A stretch of 64,000 nt of DNA from Flavobacterium kayseriense (GTDB taxonomy: Bacteria > Bacteroidota > Bacteroidia > Flavobacteriales > Flavobacteriaceae): contig NZ_JACRUI010000001.1 in the NCBI RefSeq assembly GCF_014305095.1, positions 791,695-855,694 on the forward strand, given 5' to 3'. The position numbers were made by a program, and so were the translations under genes. How positions within the stretch are numbered: position 1 is the first letter of the stretch; every line of letters begins with the position of its first letter. The notes under the pieces are model-generated. The model did not search any database, had not been told where the DNA came from, and saw nothing but the letters and a program-made list of their open reading frames with translations. This document shows, one piece after another, positions 54,163-59,304 of this stretch.

Positions 54163-54690
54163 TTAGAAACGGTAACCTAATGTTATGCCGAGACGCCCTA
54201 CAATTTCTGGGCTATCTTTGCTTAGTAAATTTCGCCCTATGCCCGTATTAATTTCAAAGAGGTAGCCTTTTTTATGTACCCATTTTGAACCTAATCCAAA
54301 GCCTATAGCGAGATCAGTGTAGCGATTTTTGTCAATACGACTAATGTTGTTATTATTGTCGTAGTAGTACGTTTTACTAGCTACTCCTGTATTAAACATA
54401 CTAAACCCCTCTATAAAAAACCCTGCTGCAGTTTTTTTTCCAAAATAAGCACGATAGTACGGGCTAAGTGTAAAATTACTTTCAAAATCATCTTCATTTA
54501 CATAAAAAATGGTCACTCCTAAACCAGTATCTTCATTCAAAATACGTTCATAACTAACTTCTACTGCACCAAGAACTAGAAATAGGGCGTTTCCTTTTAA
54601 TTCATTTTTTTTAAAATCGGGTGCAGTTTTTTCTTGACTATAGGTTGTTAAATAGGAAAAGAAGAAAATTACAATAATCAGTTTTTTCAT
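54163..54690 (-). CDS. Small outer-membrane beta-barrel protein, unknown function
   Basis: The 175-residue protein has a signal peptide (KKLIIVIFFFSYLTTYSQ) and alternating hydrophobic strands (ALFLVLGAVEVSYERIL, LGVTIFYVN, FTLSPYYRAYFG, AGFFIEGFSMFNTG, DLAIGFGLGSKWV) ending in VGRLGITLGYRF, with the terminal Phe typical of outer-membrane barrels. It resembles DUF3575-type proteins. No specific function can be assigned. Confidence 0.75.
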   Translation of the reverse strand: MKKLIIVIFFFSYLTTYSQEKTAPDFKKNELKGNALFLVLGAVEVSYERILNEDTGLGVTIFYVNEDDFESNFTLSPYYRAYFGKKTAAGFFIEGFSMFNTGVASKTYYYDNNNNISRIDKNRYTDLAIGFGLGSKWVHKKGYLFEINTGIGRNLLSKDSPEIVGRLGITLGYRF

Positions 54691-55154: not shown

Positions 55155-55979
55155 ATGAATCATTTGTACATTATTATTGACGATAATCAAGAAAGTGTTT
55201 TGAAAACTAAAGCTATAGCTGATAGTTTTTCAGAGCTTCAATTTCTAGCATCTGCGAATAATTACGATGAAGGGCTAAACCTGATATTAGAGCATTCACC
55301 ACAATTGATTTTTCTTGAAATTGATCCTTCGGATAAAAAAAGTAATTTATCATTACGATTAATTAGCGAGCTACATCGGTACTTAAAAGTGATTCCAAAA
55401 ATTATCGTCACAACGTCTAAAAAAGATCTCGCATTCGAGGCTTTACAATATGATGTAGCTGGATATATATTGAAACCCTTAGCGCGAATCGATTTTGTAA
55501 AACTTATACTAAAGATCAAAAAAGAATTTGAGCAAAAGGTAATCCAGCCTGCTCAAGAGGGGGTATTTATAAATTCAGAGGATATAAAATTATCGAGTGC
55601 TATTCGCAATGGTGGTATTTCAAATGAGGAGCCGCTTATTCTATGTGTAAAATCGTATGGCGATTACAGATATATAGATACACGTGACATATGTTATTTG
55701 CAAGCGGATAATAATTCAACAGATATCCACTTAAACAATGGAGAAATGGTTACTGCATTTAAAACGTTAAAGCATTTTGAAGGTGCTTTGACTTTTCCTT
55801 TCGTCCGTATTCATAATAGTTATATCGTTAACACAAGTTATATATCGCGTATTCATACCGGAAATTCGGTTTGTTACATAAAAAACACTGCTGTAAAACT
55901 TCCTTTTTCTAAGTCTTACAAAGGAAATATCGATCTGATTATTTCTGAAATTTCTAGTGGTAATTATCTGGAAATATAA
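55155..55979 (+). CDS. LytTR response regulator with Glu in place of the phospho-acceptor Asp
   Basis: The 274-residue protein has a receiver domain (about 1-125): LYIIIDDN supplies the acidic pair, IVTTSKKD the Thr, YILKPLAR the Lys, but the beta-3 end reads LIFLEIDP, so residue 55 is Glu where Asp should be phosphorylated. Asp57 is two residues further on and is off register. A linker leads to a LytTR DNA-binding domain (about 160-270: GDYRYIDTRDICYLQADNN ... FVRIHNSYIVNTSYISRIH). Such a receiver is expected to be locked or regulated without phosphorylation. It stands alone, without an adjoining LytS-type kinase, just upstream of the repeat-protein gene. Confidence 0.9.
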   Translation: MNHLYIIIDDNQESVLKTKAIADSFSELQFLASANNYDEGLNLILEHSPQLIFLEIDPSDKKSNLSLRLISELHRYLKVIPKIIVTTSKKDLAFEALQYDVAGYILKPLARIDFVKLILKIKKEFEQKVIQPAQEGVFINSEDIKLSSAIRNGGISNEEPLILCVKSYGDYRYIDTRDICYLQADNNSTDIHLNNGEMVTAFKTLKHFEGALTFPFVRIHNSYIVNTSYISRIHTGNSVCYIKNTAVKLPFSKSYKGNIDLIISEISSGNYLEI

Positions 55980-55989
55980 TAAAATAGCC

Positions 55990-56039
55990 ATTCACCAAGA
56001 TTTGAGCATCATTCACTATCAAACGACCGTAATCCACCA
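55990..56039. promoter_or_regulatory. Three 21-bp-spaced direct repeats (set B), candidate LytTR site
   Basis: ATTCACCA (55990), ATTCACTA (56011) and ATCCACCA (56032) start exactly 21 bp apart. On the minus strand the cores are GTGAAT, GTGAAT and GTGGAT, related to GTTAAT of set A. They lie between the LytTR gene and the repeat-protein gene, about 40 bp before a near-consensus -7 box (TAGTTTTA, 56080-56087), a placement that fits activation. Confidence 0.55.
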
Positions 56040-56164
56040 TAAACACCTAAAAACTAAGCTGAAATAAGGAATGACTGTGTAGTTTTACCACATCAAAAGC
56101 ACGTAATTATACCTGTTTTTAGAAAAACGCAAAACATTTATAAAACATAACAAATCCCCTTATT

Positions 56165-56455
56165 ATGAAAAAATCAATCTTAACAGTAGGCCTACTTTCT
56201 TTAGTAATGATCTTAACTTCATTCACAGTTTCTGAAACAAGTATCATTGGAGGTCAAGCTTCAGGAGGAAATATGAAGCTAGATATTATAGGAGGTCAGG
56301 CTTCAGGAGGAAATATGAAATTAGATATCATTGGAGGTCAGGCTTCAGGAGGAAATATGAAATTAGATATCATTGGAGGTCAGGCTTCAGGAGGAAATAT
56401 GAAGTTAGATATCATAGGAGGTCAGGCTTCAGGAGGTAATATGAAATTAGACTGA
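56165..56455 (+). CDS. Exported protein of five identical 14-residue repeats
   Basis: The 96-residue protein has an N-terminal hydrophobic signal (MKKSILTVGLLSLVMILTSF), a short linker TVSETS, and then exactly five copies of IIGGQASGGNMKLD with no other C-terminal sequence. The repeats are Gly-rich, amphipathic and charge-balanced, with one Lys and one Asp each. I know no family for this. It could be a multi-copy peptide precursor or a secreted beta-rich repeat protein. It has its own terminator and lies between a LytTR regulator and a TPR histidine-kinase pair, so it is probably regulated by or sensed by one of them. Confidence 0.8.
   Translation: MKKSILTVGLLSLVMILTSFTVSETSIIGGQASGGNMKLDIIGGQASGGNMKLDIIGGQASGGNMKLDIIGGQASGGNMKLDIIGGQASGGNMKLD
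56243..56452. repeat. Five tandem 42-bp units
   Basis: Five 42-bp units run without spacers through the end of the coding region. The units differ at about seven base positions, all synonymous (ATC/ATT, ATT/ATA, CAA/CAG, GGA/GGT, AAG/AAA, CTA/TTA, GAT/GAC). Each unit contains AGGAGG four bases before an in-frame ATG. Confidence 0.97.
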
Positions 56456-56479
56456 TATAATTATTTTGAAAATTTTATT

Positions 56480-56508
56480 AGGCTATCAAATTTTGATAGC
56501 CTTTTTTT
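56480..56508 (+). terminator. Terminator of the repeat-protein gene
   Basis: GGCTATCAAA and TTTTGATAGCC form a near-perfect stem followed by seven T. It separates the repeat gene from the kinase gene. Confidence 0.88.
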
Positions 56509-56529
56509 ATGATTATAGTTTAATTTCAC

Positions 56530-56537
56530 TATTTTTG
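56530..56537 (+). promoter_or_regulatory. TPR histidine-kinase promoter, -7 box TATTTTTG
   Basis: TATTTTTG matches TAnnTTTG exactly, 19 bp before the TTG start. A single TTTCAC half-site resembling set B overlaps it. Confidence 0.5.
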
Positions 56538-56556
56538 GTACAAACCAATACCTAAA

Positions 56557-58608
56557 TTGAGATCTACACAATACTTTTATTTAACGTTACTTCTAGTTAT
56601 TTTTCTTTCGAGTTGTACTCAAAAGGAATCTAAAAACAATATAGTTGATTCCTCTTCCGATAGTCTAGATATTTATTTTTCACTTGCTAATGATCTTAAT
56701 CTTCCAAGAGATGATAGGCAGACTTACAGTGTTAGAGCCTTAGATGTAGTCTCTAATCTTAAAAATGATTCTATAAATAGAGTTAACCTTTTTAAGGTGG
56801 CTAATCGCTTTTATAACATTAGTAACTGGAAAGATTTTAATAATACTGTAAGACTTGTTTTAGAGAATTCAACTGAGGCAAATGATTCTGTCAGTATAGC
56901 AAAAGCTTTTACCTACCTAGGTAATTATTATGAGTCTAATACTTCGCCTGATAGCGCCTTTATATTTTATAATAAAGCAGAACGTATTTATGATGATCTT
57001 AAGGATAAAATGTCTTTAGGTAAAATCTTATTTAACAAAGCTAATTTGCAATATTATTCAGGTGATTTTCTAGGTGCCGAGAAAGAAGTTTTTCATGTGT
57101 TAAGAACGATTAAGGAAGAAAAGCAAGCTAATAACATTTTATATGACTCATATAATTTATTGGGCATATTGTATGTTGAACTCGGGGAATATGATAATGC
57201 AATTATTTACCATAACAAAGCGTTGGCGATAATTGATGACAGTATCATGCCGGAAGAATTTCAGTCAAGAGCTACATCTTATAATAACCTAGGTTTCCTA
57301 TACCTTAATTCGAAAAAATATTTATTAGCTAAAGAATATTTTCAAAAAGGTTTGGAGCAAAAAAACTTATTGAGTCAAAAACCATATGTTTACTCTATGT
57401 TATTGGATAATTTCGCATACGCTAAGTTTAAATTAGAGGAGTCAAAACAACTTCCAGATCTTTTCTTCGAATCCTTAAATCTTCGAGATAGTTTAAACAT
57501 TGTTTCTGGGATATTTATTAATAAAATTCATTTGTCTGAATTTTATGCGTCCAGAAAAGATACAGTAAAAGCAATACAATATTCTAAAGAAGCACTTCAA
57601 TCAGCTCGCGAAACAAACGTTGCTAGGGATGTATTAGTTGCTTTAAAACAACTTGCCCTCATTGAACCAACAAAAGCAGTAATATACAACAAAGAATACA
57701 TTCGAATCAACGAACAACTACAGAAAGAAGAGCGCAAGATGGGAGATAAGTTCTCTCGTATTGAGTATGAAACAGATCAAATCAAAGACCAAAATTCAAG
57801 CTTAGAACTTCAAAATAAGAATTTAGCATATGCTTTAAGTTTTTTGACCATCCTGGGACTTTCTACTTATATAATTAAAACACAAAAGACCAAAAACAGG
57901 GAGCTTTTATACAAGCAGCAACAGCAAAAAGCAAACGAGGATATATATAATTTGATGATCTCACAGCAAAACACGATTGAGAGTAACAGGGTTCAAGAGA
58001 AAAAAAGAGTTGCTCAAGAGTTACATGATGGTGTATTGGGTAGGATGTTTGGTGTTAGAATGAACTTAGATAGTCTAAATAAATTCCAAGATGAGCAGGC
58101 TATCGATCAACGAAACAGTTATTTATCAGAACTAAAAAATATAGAACAAGATATTCGTGAAATTTCCCATGACTTGAATAGAGAAAAATCAGAATTAATT
58201 AATAACTTCGTCGCAATCGTTGATAATTTGCTAGAAGAGCAGCGTAAAACATTTGAAACGAAACTAGTGTCAACGATTGATTCAAGTATAAAATGGGATA
58301 GGGTAAAGAACTCTTCAAAGATTAATTTATATCGAATTATTCAAGAGTCACTCCAAAATTGCAATAAATATGCTAAAGCCACTACTATTATAGTAGAACT
58401 AAAGAAGAAAGATGATTCGATAGTGCTGCTAATTAAAGACAATGGTGTAGGTTTCAACGCCAAAACAAAAAAGAAAGGAATTGGCTTGCAAAATATGATT
58501 TCACGAACAAATGAATGTAATGGGATATTTGATATCTCCTCTGCTATAGGCCAAGGAAGTACAATATGCGTTACGATACCAATAGAACAAAAACAAATAC
58601 CACTATAA
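56557..58608 (+). CDS. TPR-containing sensor histidine kinase (HisKA_3 type), lipoprotein-like N-terminus
   Basis: The 683-residue protein starts at TTG (56557), directly before a signal with lipobox LSSC (Cys20). Tetratricopeptide repeats fill about residues 60-400 (AFTYLGNYYESNTSPDSAFI; YNLLGILYVELGEYDNAII; NNLGFLYLNSKKYLLAKEYF). One membrane helix lies near 424-442, then a coiled coil, the NarL/DegS-type H box RVAQELHDGVLG with His490, an N box near NLYRIIQESLQNCNKYAKA, and KGIGLQNM of the ATP lid. The TPR part should thus face the periplasm. TPR domains bind peptides in several signalling systems. The response regulator follows 3 bp downstream. Confidence 0.92.
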   Translation: MRSTQYFYLTLLLVIFLSSCTQKESKNNIVDSSSDSLDIYFSLANDLNLPRDDRQTYSVRALDVVSNLKNDSINRVNLFKVANRFYNISNWKDFNNTVRLVLENSTEANDSVSIAKAFTYLGNYYESNTSPDSAFIFYNKAERIYDDLKDKMSLGKILFNKANLQYYSGDFLGAEKEVFHVLRTIKEEKQANNILYDSYNLLGILYVELGEYDNAIIYHNKALAIIDDSIMPEEFQSRATSYNNLGFLYLNSKKYLLAKEYFQKGLEQKNLLSQKPYVYSMLLDNFAYAKFKLEESKQLPDLFFESLNLRDSLNIVSGIFINKIHLSEFYASRKDTVKAIQYSKEALQSARETNVARDVLVALKQLALIEPTKAVIYNKEYIRINEQLQKEERKMGDKFSRIEYETDQIKDQNSSLELQNKNLAYALSFLTILGLSTYIIKTQKTKNRELLYKQQQQKANEDIYNLMISQQNTIESNRVQEKKRVAQELHDGVLGRMFGVRMNLDSLNKFQDEQAIDQRNSYLSELKNIEQDIREISHDLNREKSELINNFVAIVDNLLEEQRKTFETKLVSTIDSSIKWDRVKNSSKINLYRIIQESLQNCNKYAKATTIIVELKKKDDSIVLLIKDNGVGFNAKTKKKGIGLQNMISRTNECNGIFDISSAIGQGSTICVTIPIEQKQIPL

Positions 58609-58611
58609 ATA

Positions 58612-59304
58612 ATGACCGTTGAACCCCAATCTTTAACACGTCTTGAGAATAAAATTTTAATTGTTGACGACCACCCTTTTATAATTCAAGGGTACAAAAA
58701 TGCTATAACACGATATCAGCCTGATAAGTATGAGTTTCAAATTATGGAAGCCAAGGATTGTGAGTCTGCTTACAATTTGATCTTAAATCCAGAAACACCT
58801 AAATTTGATATCGCTTTTTTAGATATTAGCATGCCTCCTTATGAAGAGAAGGGTATTTATTCTGGTGAAGATTTAGCTAAGTTGATTTTAGAAAACATGC
58901 CTAATTGTAAAATTATTTTACTGACCATGTTTACTGAGTTTTTAAAAATTAAAACGATAATCAAAAATATTAATCCTAATGGACTAATAATTAAAAATGA
59001 TTTAACCTTTGACGAACTTATTTTTGCTTTCGATAAAGTTATAAAAAACGAAATGTACTATAGCCAGTCAGTTCTTCAAATGTTAGAATCGCAAGATCAT
59101 AGTATTGAGATTGATTTATTTGATAAACAAATTTTATTTCATTTATCTAAAGGAACCAAAGCAGAAGATATTCCTCAATATATTCCGATATCACTAAATG
59201 CAATAGAGGCAAGGAAGCTAAATCTAAAAGAATTATTAAGCTTGACCGAAGGAACTGATCTAGAATTAGTGCGAGAAGCGAGAAAAATAGGATTATTATT
59301 CTAA
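58612..59304 (+). CDS. Response regulator, LuxR/NarL-like with divergent output domain
   Basis: The 230-residue protein has an intact receiver (KILIVDDHPFIIQGYKNAI; phospho-acceptor Asp in IAFLDISMP; LLTMF; IIKNDLT with the Lys). The C-terminal part FDKQILFHLSKGTKAEDIPQYIPISLNAIEARKLNLKEL follows the LuxR helix-turn-helix pattern but is weakly conserved. The tail DLELVREARKIGLLF matches other flavobacterial regulators of this type. It is co-transcribed with the kinase and is its likely partner. Confidence 0.9.
   Translation: MTVEPQSLTRLENKILIVDDHPFIIQGYKNAITRYQPDKYEFQIMEAKDCESAYNLILNPETPKFDIAFLDISMPPYEEKGIYSGEDLAKLILENMPNCKIILLTMFTEFLKIKTIIKNINPNGLIIKNDLTFDELIFAFDKVIKNEMYYSQSVLQMLESQDHSIEIDLFDKQILFHLSKGTKAEDIPQYIPISLNAIEARKLNLKELLSLTEGTDLELVREARKIGLLF

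Follow-up and report, generated by a model that had tools for sequence, protein, structure and literature searches.

The DNA window analyzed here, a stretch of 64,000 nucleotides from Flavobacterium kayseriense, carries a candidate peptide-signaling locus of four plus-strand open reading frames (ORFs) within 4.2 kb. These encode a LytTR-type regulator, a repeat-containing peptide precursor, a histidine kinase with tetratricopeptide repeats (TPRs), and a response regulator. An earlier reading of the same letters (the original prediction) had proposed four same-strand genes, and all of the ORFs are present where it placed them. The gene set is more than a chance association because the DNA copies of the repeat differ only synonymously and because the arrangement is conserved among relatives.

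Relatives were collected with a LytTR profile (16 rows), and the best 80 of at least 547 were taken as named loci, nearly all of which are from Flavobacterium. We use “Flavobacterium set” for the window together with the named loci and others from the genus; this includes a few metagenome bins that carry other names. A further 40 loci from other genera were chosen by us among places matching the LytTR subfamily at E 4e-57 or better.

A repeat-peptide gene beside a TPR kinase gene

The product of the second gene comprises a 26-residue N-terminal part followed by five identical 14-residue units (IIGGQASGGNMKLD). The corresponding DNA is a tandem repeat (56242 to 56451, period 42, 5.0 copies, score 364), and its five copies exhibit 32 synonymous versus 0 non-synonymous differences when summed over the ten copy pairs. 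When the precursors of 75 loci are considered along with that of the window, exact cores are present at least twice in 53 of these 76 and at least three times in 45. The copies within the 53 arrays differ at a proportion of synonymous sites (pS) of 0.379 and of non-synonymous sites (pN) of 0.023 (pN/pS 0.06), where the non-synonymous part comes partly from spacers. In arrays with unequal spacers (L069, L089, L100, and L106), the core is kept and the spacer drifts. Conservation of the unit within a precursor is accompanied by variation between loci. Across 69 loci, mean pairwise identity is 0.70 for the leader, 0.36 for the mature part, 0.52 for the kinase ectodomain, 0.68 for the kinase catalytic part, and 0.64 for the LytTR protein.

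The units have a high content of Gly and polar residues. A C-terminal end of the form Lys/Arg-x-Asp is present in 109 of 145 precursors, and quite different ends are found in 27. The single-copy precursors of a large Flavobacterium group (L073, L080, L088, L099, L104, and related loci) each hold two candidate peptides, one internal and of the IDGG...KxD type, the other C-terminal and of the NQSxGxxKKVD or SQxTRxTVKVD type. Three terminator-like sites were found in the region, compared with a mean of 2.0 in shuffled sequences, and one of these is a hairpin between the precursor and kinase genes. Its position suggests that the precursor may be produced in excess over the kinase, its putative receptor.

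The kinase yields Pfam matches above cut-off to TPR_12, TPR_1, TPR_2, HisKA_3, and HATPase_c, and residues His490, Asp491, Asn601, Asp628, Gly630, and Gly632 are present in all 172 aligned kinases. Its AlphaFold2 (AF2) model, with a mean predicted local distance difference test (pLDDT) score of 82, includes approximately eight TPRs (residues 51 to 369), after which one long helix passes through the membrane toward the dimerization helix. All 132 kinases of the Flavobacterium set and 28 of the 40 from other genera have a Cys at position 20, in an apparent lipobox. The TPR part, which is located between this signal/lipobox segment and the membrane helix, presumably lies outside the cytoplasm. 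Judging from the Pfam TPR borders, Asn200, Asn244, and Asn285 sit in the first helix of successive TPRs. They are kept in 124, 132, and 132 of the 132 Flavobacterium-set kinases, and in 37, 38, and 35 of the 40 others, within a domain that evolves fast around them.

A profile search of solved structures returned designed TPR proteins, kinesin light chain, LGN, and RapF (3.6e-7) among its matches. Comparison of the ectodomain model by VIA-align gave Z values of 28.0 for LGN, 25.4 for RapI, 24.6 for NprR, 24.1 for Rap-phi3T, and 23.9 for RapF-PhrF. The architecture is also FimS-like in that TPRs, a membrane helix, HisKA_3, and HATPase_c are present, the membrane side being assigned by inference. 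The FimS equivalog model NF053520 gives the window kinase 24.6 bits, which is below its cut-off of 600.

The receiver of the fourth gene's product is matched with 41.1 bits (cut-off 30.2). Residues Asp19, Asp20, Asp71, Thr105, and Lys128 are invariant in an alignment of 27 response regulators, and the phospho-acceptor Asp is kept, as judged by motif, in 59 of 62. No Pfam GerE match for a GerE-type helix-turn-helix was obtained with this protein; its C-terminal domain is predicted to be helical, and the model of the whole protein matches spr1814, RcsB, and LiaR. This NarL-like response regulator presumably serves as the output of the kinase.

The first gene encodes a protein with matches to Response_reg (31.2 bits, cut-off 30.2) and LytTR (59.5 bits, cut-off 22.6). 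The phospho-acceptor position of its receiver is Glu (Glu55) in 81 of 81 Flavobacterium-set loci, and among the 40 loci of other genera is Asn in 27, Asp in 5, Glu in 4, His in 3, and Cys in 1. In those genera the acidic pair has mostly lost its second residue as well (Asp in 2 of 40). Lacking the phospho-acceptor Asp, the LytTR protein is probably not phosphorylated by the kinase and probably functions as a phosphorylation-independent local activator of the precursor gene. The original prediction had cited AgrA and ComE as LytTR proteins that often control peptide signaling; given these substitutions, the mechanism here is not like theirs.

LytTR operators are formed by direct repeats that are ~21 bp apart. 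Three half-sites with a 21-bp period precede the window precursor gene, and similar repeats are evident in an alignment of 76 Flavobacterium upstream regions. The same alignment reveals an TGTGTAGTTTTAC element, a candidate promoter core that resembles the Bacteroidota −7 box (TAnnTTTG). The exact pair of first and second half-sites occurs once in the genome that carries the window, at the precursor gene, and was found at the locus in five of eight genomes (G000, G403, G406, G551, and G587; not G401, G413, or G415). When at most one mismatch was permitted, the seven genomes other than G406 yielded 15 other operator matches versus 9 for a reversed control, and thus we claim no wider LytTR regulon. 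In G406, a 21-bp periodic repeat like CATTCACGATATTGCCATGCA is clustered over the genome, giving 31 operator-pattern matches (a count that covers the locus and a few matches of other kinds) versus 1 for the reversed control. The upstream alignment of other genera exhibits a CATTTACT-like repeat and a TAGTTTAGC element.

Table 1. Features of the candidate signaling locus, numbered from the first letter of the window.
Feature	Position	Strand	Evidence
LytTR regulator gene, 274 aa	55155..55979	+	Response_reg PF00072, LytTR PF04397
First LytTR-type half-site, CATTCACC	55989..55996	+	Upstream alignment
Second half-site, CATTCACT, 21 bp after the first	56010..56017	+	Upstream alignment
Third half-site, AATCCACC, another 21 bp on	56031..56038	+	Upstream alignment
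TGTGTAGTTTTAC with strongly conserved TAGTTTTAC, candidate promoter core	56076..56088	+	76 upstream regions aligned
Peptide precursor gene, 96 aa	56165..56455	+	ORF list, tandem repeat, homologs in genus
Sec-type leader, conserved, MKKSILTVGLLSLVMILTSFTV	56165..56230	+	Leader identity across 69 loci
Five identical 14-residue units IIGGQASGGNMKLD, candidate signal	56243..56452	+	Tandem repeat; synonymous-only differences
Terminator-like hairpin followed by T run	56480..56502	+	Hairpin scan
TPR sensor histidine kinase gene, 683 aa, TTG start	56557..58608	+	Pfam, AF2 model
Predicted extracytoplasmic TPR ectodomain, residues 21-410, putative receptor half of exchangeable cassette	56617..57786	+	Co-divergence, fold, Asn conservation
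Membrane helix, residues 424-442	57826..57882	+	Hydrophobic stretch by eye; co-divergence near zero
HisKA_3 (481-541, His490) and HATPase_c (589-677)	57997..58587	+	Pfam, invariant residues
Response regulator gene, Asp71 intact, NarL-like C-terminal helical domain	58612..59304	+	Receiver match, alignment, fold

The neighboring genes in the window are a DUF3575 gene and glyS upstream and thiL downstream, with glyS and thiL named by eye. The DUF3575 gene (54163 to 54690, minus strand) is divergently oriented, and similar proteins, again judged by eye, occupy the same place in L014, L015, L042, L053, and L071.

Linkage and distribution of the four genes

Of the 80 named loci, 75 contain a small precursor ORF. 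Its start lies within 1 kb of the LytTR gene in 69 of the 75, and 170 to 190 bp away in 63 of these 69. The kinase frame begins −10 to 123 bp after the precursor in 68 of the 75, and the other seven loci end at a contig edge or at the edge of the fetched piece. Among the five named loci that have no precursor, the contig ends in L034, and other genes lie between LytTR and kinase in L067, L079, L082, and L087. Loci of a second type (L064, L066, L067, L069, L072, L074, L079, L082, L087, and L097) carry one or two TPR kinases with no adjoining precursor. These also have extra small exported ORFs between the LytTR and repeat genes, examples being a 127-aa family with MKNLLFG or MKNVLFG and a 132-aa family with KGGELLLSGLS.

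Loci L239 to L338 are excluded from all linkage counts, having been picked from precursor matches nearly all of which were known to adjoin a kinase. A precursor profile that is independent of LytTR gives matches in 170 of 249 Flavobacterium genomes at E ≤ 1e-3, and 146 strong matches (E ≤ 1e-10) in 145 of the 249. Within 2.6 kb of these 146, at least 131 have a kinase, at least 123 a LytTR gene, at least 112 both, and at least 142 either. The LytTR gene is in some cases separated from the precursor by 4 to 20 kb, with precursor and kinase still side by side. The original prediction had named as evidence against itself a majority of repeat-gene homologs standing apart from LytTR and kinase genes, and these counts reveal the opposite pattern.

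Outside the genus, the LytTR subfamily is found at E ≤ 1e-30 in 133 of 397 Flavobacteriaceae genomes and in 94 of 237 genera, the weakest matches possibly being other LytTR proteins. Among 15 same-order genomes of other families, LytTR matches are distant (best 1e-20) or missing. The original prediction had proposed a search for the gene order in other Flavobacteriaceae, and all four genes (LytTR, small exported ORF, TPR kinase, and response regulator) are indeed present in 40 of the 40 other-genus loci. The lowest kinase profile score is 412 bits, the ORF in between is 46 to 123 aa long, and the response regulator directly follows the kinase in 40 of 40 by profile (its motif was found in 7 of 40). 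Precursors in these genera were identified by position only; a small ORF is found there in 40 of 40 loci on the sense strand and in 2 of 40 on the antisense strand.

Most of these other-genus precursors are lipoprotein-like, 30 of 32 having a Cys at or before residue 30. Identity among the 32 is 0.13 over the last 12 residues versus 0.29 over the 18 residues up to the Cys. Arrays occur here as well, with five copies in L224, three in L226 (20 synonymous and 0 non-synonymous differences), and six in L231. Locus L231 (G032:C1:3236945, 3238051) has two tandem LytTR-subfamily genes beside its precursor of six Cys-pair units (CDDCAHDSDDRET), whose cysteines may form disulfides.

Sequence searches with the precursor itself reach less far. 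The repeat-protein query has matches in just 8 of 397 Flavobacteriaceae genomes at E ≤ 0.01, that of the window among them, with best other matches of 1.6e-9 within the genus and 1.2e-5 outside. The scarcity of matches outside the genus is explained by a mature part that is too variable, and with the precursor profile only matches of E 7e-6 or weaker were obtained there.

Co-divergence of the mature peptide and the TPR ectodomain

We reasoned that if the repeat unit is the ligand of the neighboring ectodomain, then the two should change together. For this comparison 100 loci were added. Of the resulting 181, 12 have no precursor-kinase pair because they lie at contig or fetched-piece ends or belong to the group with other genes in between; 169 have the pair, and 145 distinct loci were kept. 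The pair tests, window scan, cassette borders, and neighbor test use the 132 of these 145 with LytTR within 1 kb. Nearest disjoint pairs were formed by distance in LytTR plus the kinase catalytic part, a greedy choice that does not give strictly independent tree paths. A rate-matched control was built from the same two parts, and pairs with a background distance below 0.2 were called close.

For 66 disjoint pairs, peptide distance correlates with ectodomain distance at rho 0.63 and with the rate-matched control at 0.25. For the 45 close pairs, the values are 0.82 and 0.25, with a partial correlation of 0.81 that was reached in 0 of 5000 permutations. When only the units were scored, 38 array pairs gave 0.78 for the ectodomain and 0.65 for the control (partial 0.59, p 0.0004), and 23 close array pairs gave 0.81 and 0.53 (partial 0.80). 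Moreover, among 100 loci whose nearest neighbors by ectodomain and by background differ, the closer peptide is that of the ectodomain neighbor in 69 and of the background neighbor in 27, with 4 ties (p 7e-8). An all-pairs Mantel test also gives a partial value of 0.47 (0 of 500). Because that test is inflated by relatedness, our conclusion rests on the disjoint sister pairs.

The extent of the linked region was mapped with 30-residue kinase windows in the 45 close pairs. The partial r is 0.53 to 0.83 throughout residues 21 to 410, and −0.13 to 0.26 for windows from residue 401 on, so that the link stops at the outer side of the membrane helix. A specific pocket at kinase residues 150 to 300 had been considered and was dropped, as the 45 disjoint pairs show signal over the whole ectodomain.

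Nucleotide identity reveals corresponding borders when 21 close pairs with changed peptides are compared with 17 unchanged pairs, leaving aside the 7 of 45 with intermediate peptide distance. In the changed pairs, identity is 0.87 upstream, 0.86 in LytTR, 0.85 in the intergenic region, and 0.93 in the leader, then 0.56 in the mature part, 0.72 in the gap, and 0.70 in the ectodomain, and again 0.87 in the catalytic part and 0.88 downstream. The corresponding values for the unchanged pairs are 0.81, 0.87, 0.89, and 0.95, then 0.85, 0.84, and 0.84, and finally 0.88 and 0.88. Individual pairs exhibit the same mosaic. Loci L334 and L287 are 0.91 to 0.97 identical outside the cassette, 0.51 in the mature part, and 0.69 in the ectodomain, and F. 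daejeonense and F. pokkalii (L036/L037) are an example from named species (LytTR 0.97, catalytic part 0.97, ectodomain 0.75). The reverse mosaic is found in L261/L068, where LytTR (0.69) and the catalytic part (0.75) have diverged and identity inside is 0.84 to 0.94 (ectodomain 0.92), with the same unit. As judged from these sequences, the mature peptide and the ectodomain constitute one hypervariable, recombining cassette in a setting of constant leader, LytTR, catalytic part, and response regulator.

A probable peptide-pheromone two-component system

Pherotype-forming peptide pheromones have been described in Gram-positive bacteria. Like agr and ComCDE, the locus described here combines a precursor, a sensor kinase with a hypervariable sensor and a constant kinase half, a LytTR protein, and an exchangeable pherotype block. 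Unlike in those systems, the sensor here is a TPR ectodomain instead of a membrane domain of several helices, no AgrB- or ComAB-like gene is recognized among the four conserved genes or the window neighbors, and the LytTR protein lacks the phospho-acceptor Asp while a separate NarL-like regulator is present. The yeast alpha-factor precursor also carries several short pheromone copies in one secreted protein, but that system is eukaryotic and employs dedicated proteases and a G-protein-coupled receptor.

The RRNPPA systems, and Rap-Phr in particular, share with this locus a Sec-exported propeptide gene that adjoins the receptor gene (here at least 131 of 146 strong precursors lie beside a kinase). 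Their TPR receptors (RapI, NprR) resemble the ectodomain model in fold, though LGN has a higher Z. According to one account (PMC11343458), Rap-Phr propeptides hold 1 to 4 pheromone copies, and a conserved Asn in Rap anchors the pheromone main chain. The precursors described here likewise hold several copies, though up to six and mostly kept identical, and the conserved Asn ladder of the window kinase is reminiscent of the Rap residue. RRNPPA receptors, however, bind re-imported peptide inside the cell, in Bacillota, whereas in the window kinase, from a member of Bacteroidota, the TPR part would form the outward-facing half of a membrane-bound histidine kinase. Because the defining features of RRNPPA and agr that were tested are absent, the locus is not classed with either. 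Another system with related architecture is FimS-FimR of Porphyromonas gingivalis, with a periplasmic TPR sensor, a membrane helix, and a kinase. Its description (PMC11053733) lists two Asn (N180 and N228) among six critical residues of FimS, gives its ligand as unknown, and considers a polypeptide ligand possible.

No peptide signaling of this kind in Bacteroidota was found in term searches of an open-access collection, one without bioRxiv preprints and most subscription papers. In the text of PMC10075063, Bacteroidetes are mentioned once and not as a host of such peptide systems, and PMC9765709 gave no match to the searched term. The locus works like a peptide two-component system of the pherotype type and would best be named as such, with a receptor class that is new and in a phylum for which these searches gave no described case.

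We consider it likely that the four genes form a peptide-pheromone two-component system of Flavobacteriaceae with exchangeable pherotype cassettes. From the gene set and its linkage, the identity of units within arrays, the co-divergence, the cassette borders, and the predicted folds, we infer the following scheme. The 96-residue precursor would be exported by the Sec route, and general proteases would release the repeated unit (IIGGQASGGNMKLD or part of it), which could reach other cells. The neighboring membrane kinase would bind the peptide in the groove of its TPR ectodomain and then pass phosphate to the NarL-like response regulator encoded beside it, which would in turn control target genes. 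By binding the repeats that lie at 21-bp spacing ahead of the precursor gene, the LytTR pseudo-receiver protein would set signal production, and cassette exchange would cause relatives to differ in pherotype. The central proposal of the original prediction, that the repeat product is the ligand of an extracytoplasmic TPR part, is thus strengthened by the linkage, co-divergence, and fold predictions.

Several observations weigh against this interpretation. LGN outscores Rap in the model comparison, and other intracellular TPR proteins score equally high, so the fold alone does not indicate a pheromone receptor. For all pairs of 47 arrays, the rate-matched partial correlation is 0.44, but leaving out the KTD class of units lowers it to 0.19, and leaving out both the KTD and IGG classes lowers it to 0.10, with the control then the better of the two (0.42, 0.51). 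Each of these classes is a single clade in the ectodomain and background trees, and class-level matches, such as Leu243/Asp275 with KTD/KSD units (8 loci), therefore count as single events. In addition, a precursor is missing immediately upstream of 10 of the 78 named-locus kinases; these belong to loci in which other genes lie between LytTR and kinase or a second kinase is present. Also, at E ≤ 1e-10 the precursor goes unmatched in 104 of 249 Flavobacterium genomes, and among genomes with a listed kinase match or a listed LytTR match, a strong precursor match is missing from 9 of 148 and 7 of 150, respectively. The exact operator pair is present at the locus in only five of the eight genomes mentioned above. 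No processing protease or exporter adjoins the genes, as the original prediction had noted for the window, and a 14-mer would still have to cross the outer membrane. Finally, all of the evidence is computational.

The missing exporter is in keeping with another explanation, in which ligand and receptor are the same but the exported protein stays with its producer, in the periplasm or outer membrane, and reports to the kinase the state of export, of the envelope, or of proteases, so that cells exchange no message. No maturation gene is recognized beside the genes in the window either, and the Cys near the start of most other-genus precursors could tether them to the producing cell. Such self-sensing nevertheless gives no evident reason why ligand and receptor should diversify and be exchanged jointly, or why the same unit should be multiplied within one precursor, and we regard it as unlikely. 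We attach far less weight to a narrow-spectrum antimicrobial peptide that the kinase senses to set defense or production, with diversification as an arms race. A hypervariable small exported product does adjoin a regulator set here, and LytTR proteins and kinases control bacteriocins as pairs in other bacteria. Yet none of the four conserved genes resembles one for immunity, export, or modification (immunity genes were not the object of a dedicated search), and the units are Gly- and polar-rich and identical within an array.

The adjacency of peptide and ectodomain raises a different concern, namely that one recombination tract carries both, and co-transfer of neighboring DNA could give part of the correlation. 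A repeat protein with some other role, for example in a surface coat or matrix, might then track the ectodomain simply by sharing this tract. Precursor and kinase frame are contiguous (−10 to 123 bp), and the gap between them is also replaced (0.72 in changed versus 0.84 in unchanged pairs), as this explanation would predict. However, averaged over the 21 changed pairs, the tract has one end where leader and mature part meet and the other close to the membrane helix. Hitchhiking also leaves the hypervariability of both parts unexplained, the unit copies keep their protein sequence while synonymous sites diverge, and the kinase directly follows the precursor in 68 of 75 named loci, the other seven ending at an edge. 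We give this explanation the lowest probability of all.

A broader version of the pheromone reading, toward which we lean with less assurance, is a family-wide peptide language. It would descend from one ancestral four-gene unit, with pherotypes exchanged as cassettes, signal multiplication arising more than once, and a receptor that is an extracellular counterpart of the cytoplasmic RRNPPA receptors. Within this broader version, the TPR ectodomain perhaps reads a peptide ending in Lys/Arg-x-Asp through a clamp for the terminal Asp. An EEVD-like clamp was set aside as a general feature and is retained only here, because 27 of the 145 precursors end quite otherwise.

The 145 distinct loci supply candidate ligand-receptor pairs, such that specificity is testable at once, and they represent a natural library of matched peptide-TPR pairs. 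A pheromone system of this type would also offer an answer to what the extracytoplasmic TPR kinases of Bacteroidota sense, a question left open for FimS (PMC11053733). If our interpretation is true, these loci would constitute an undescribed peptide language in a major bacterial group.

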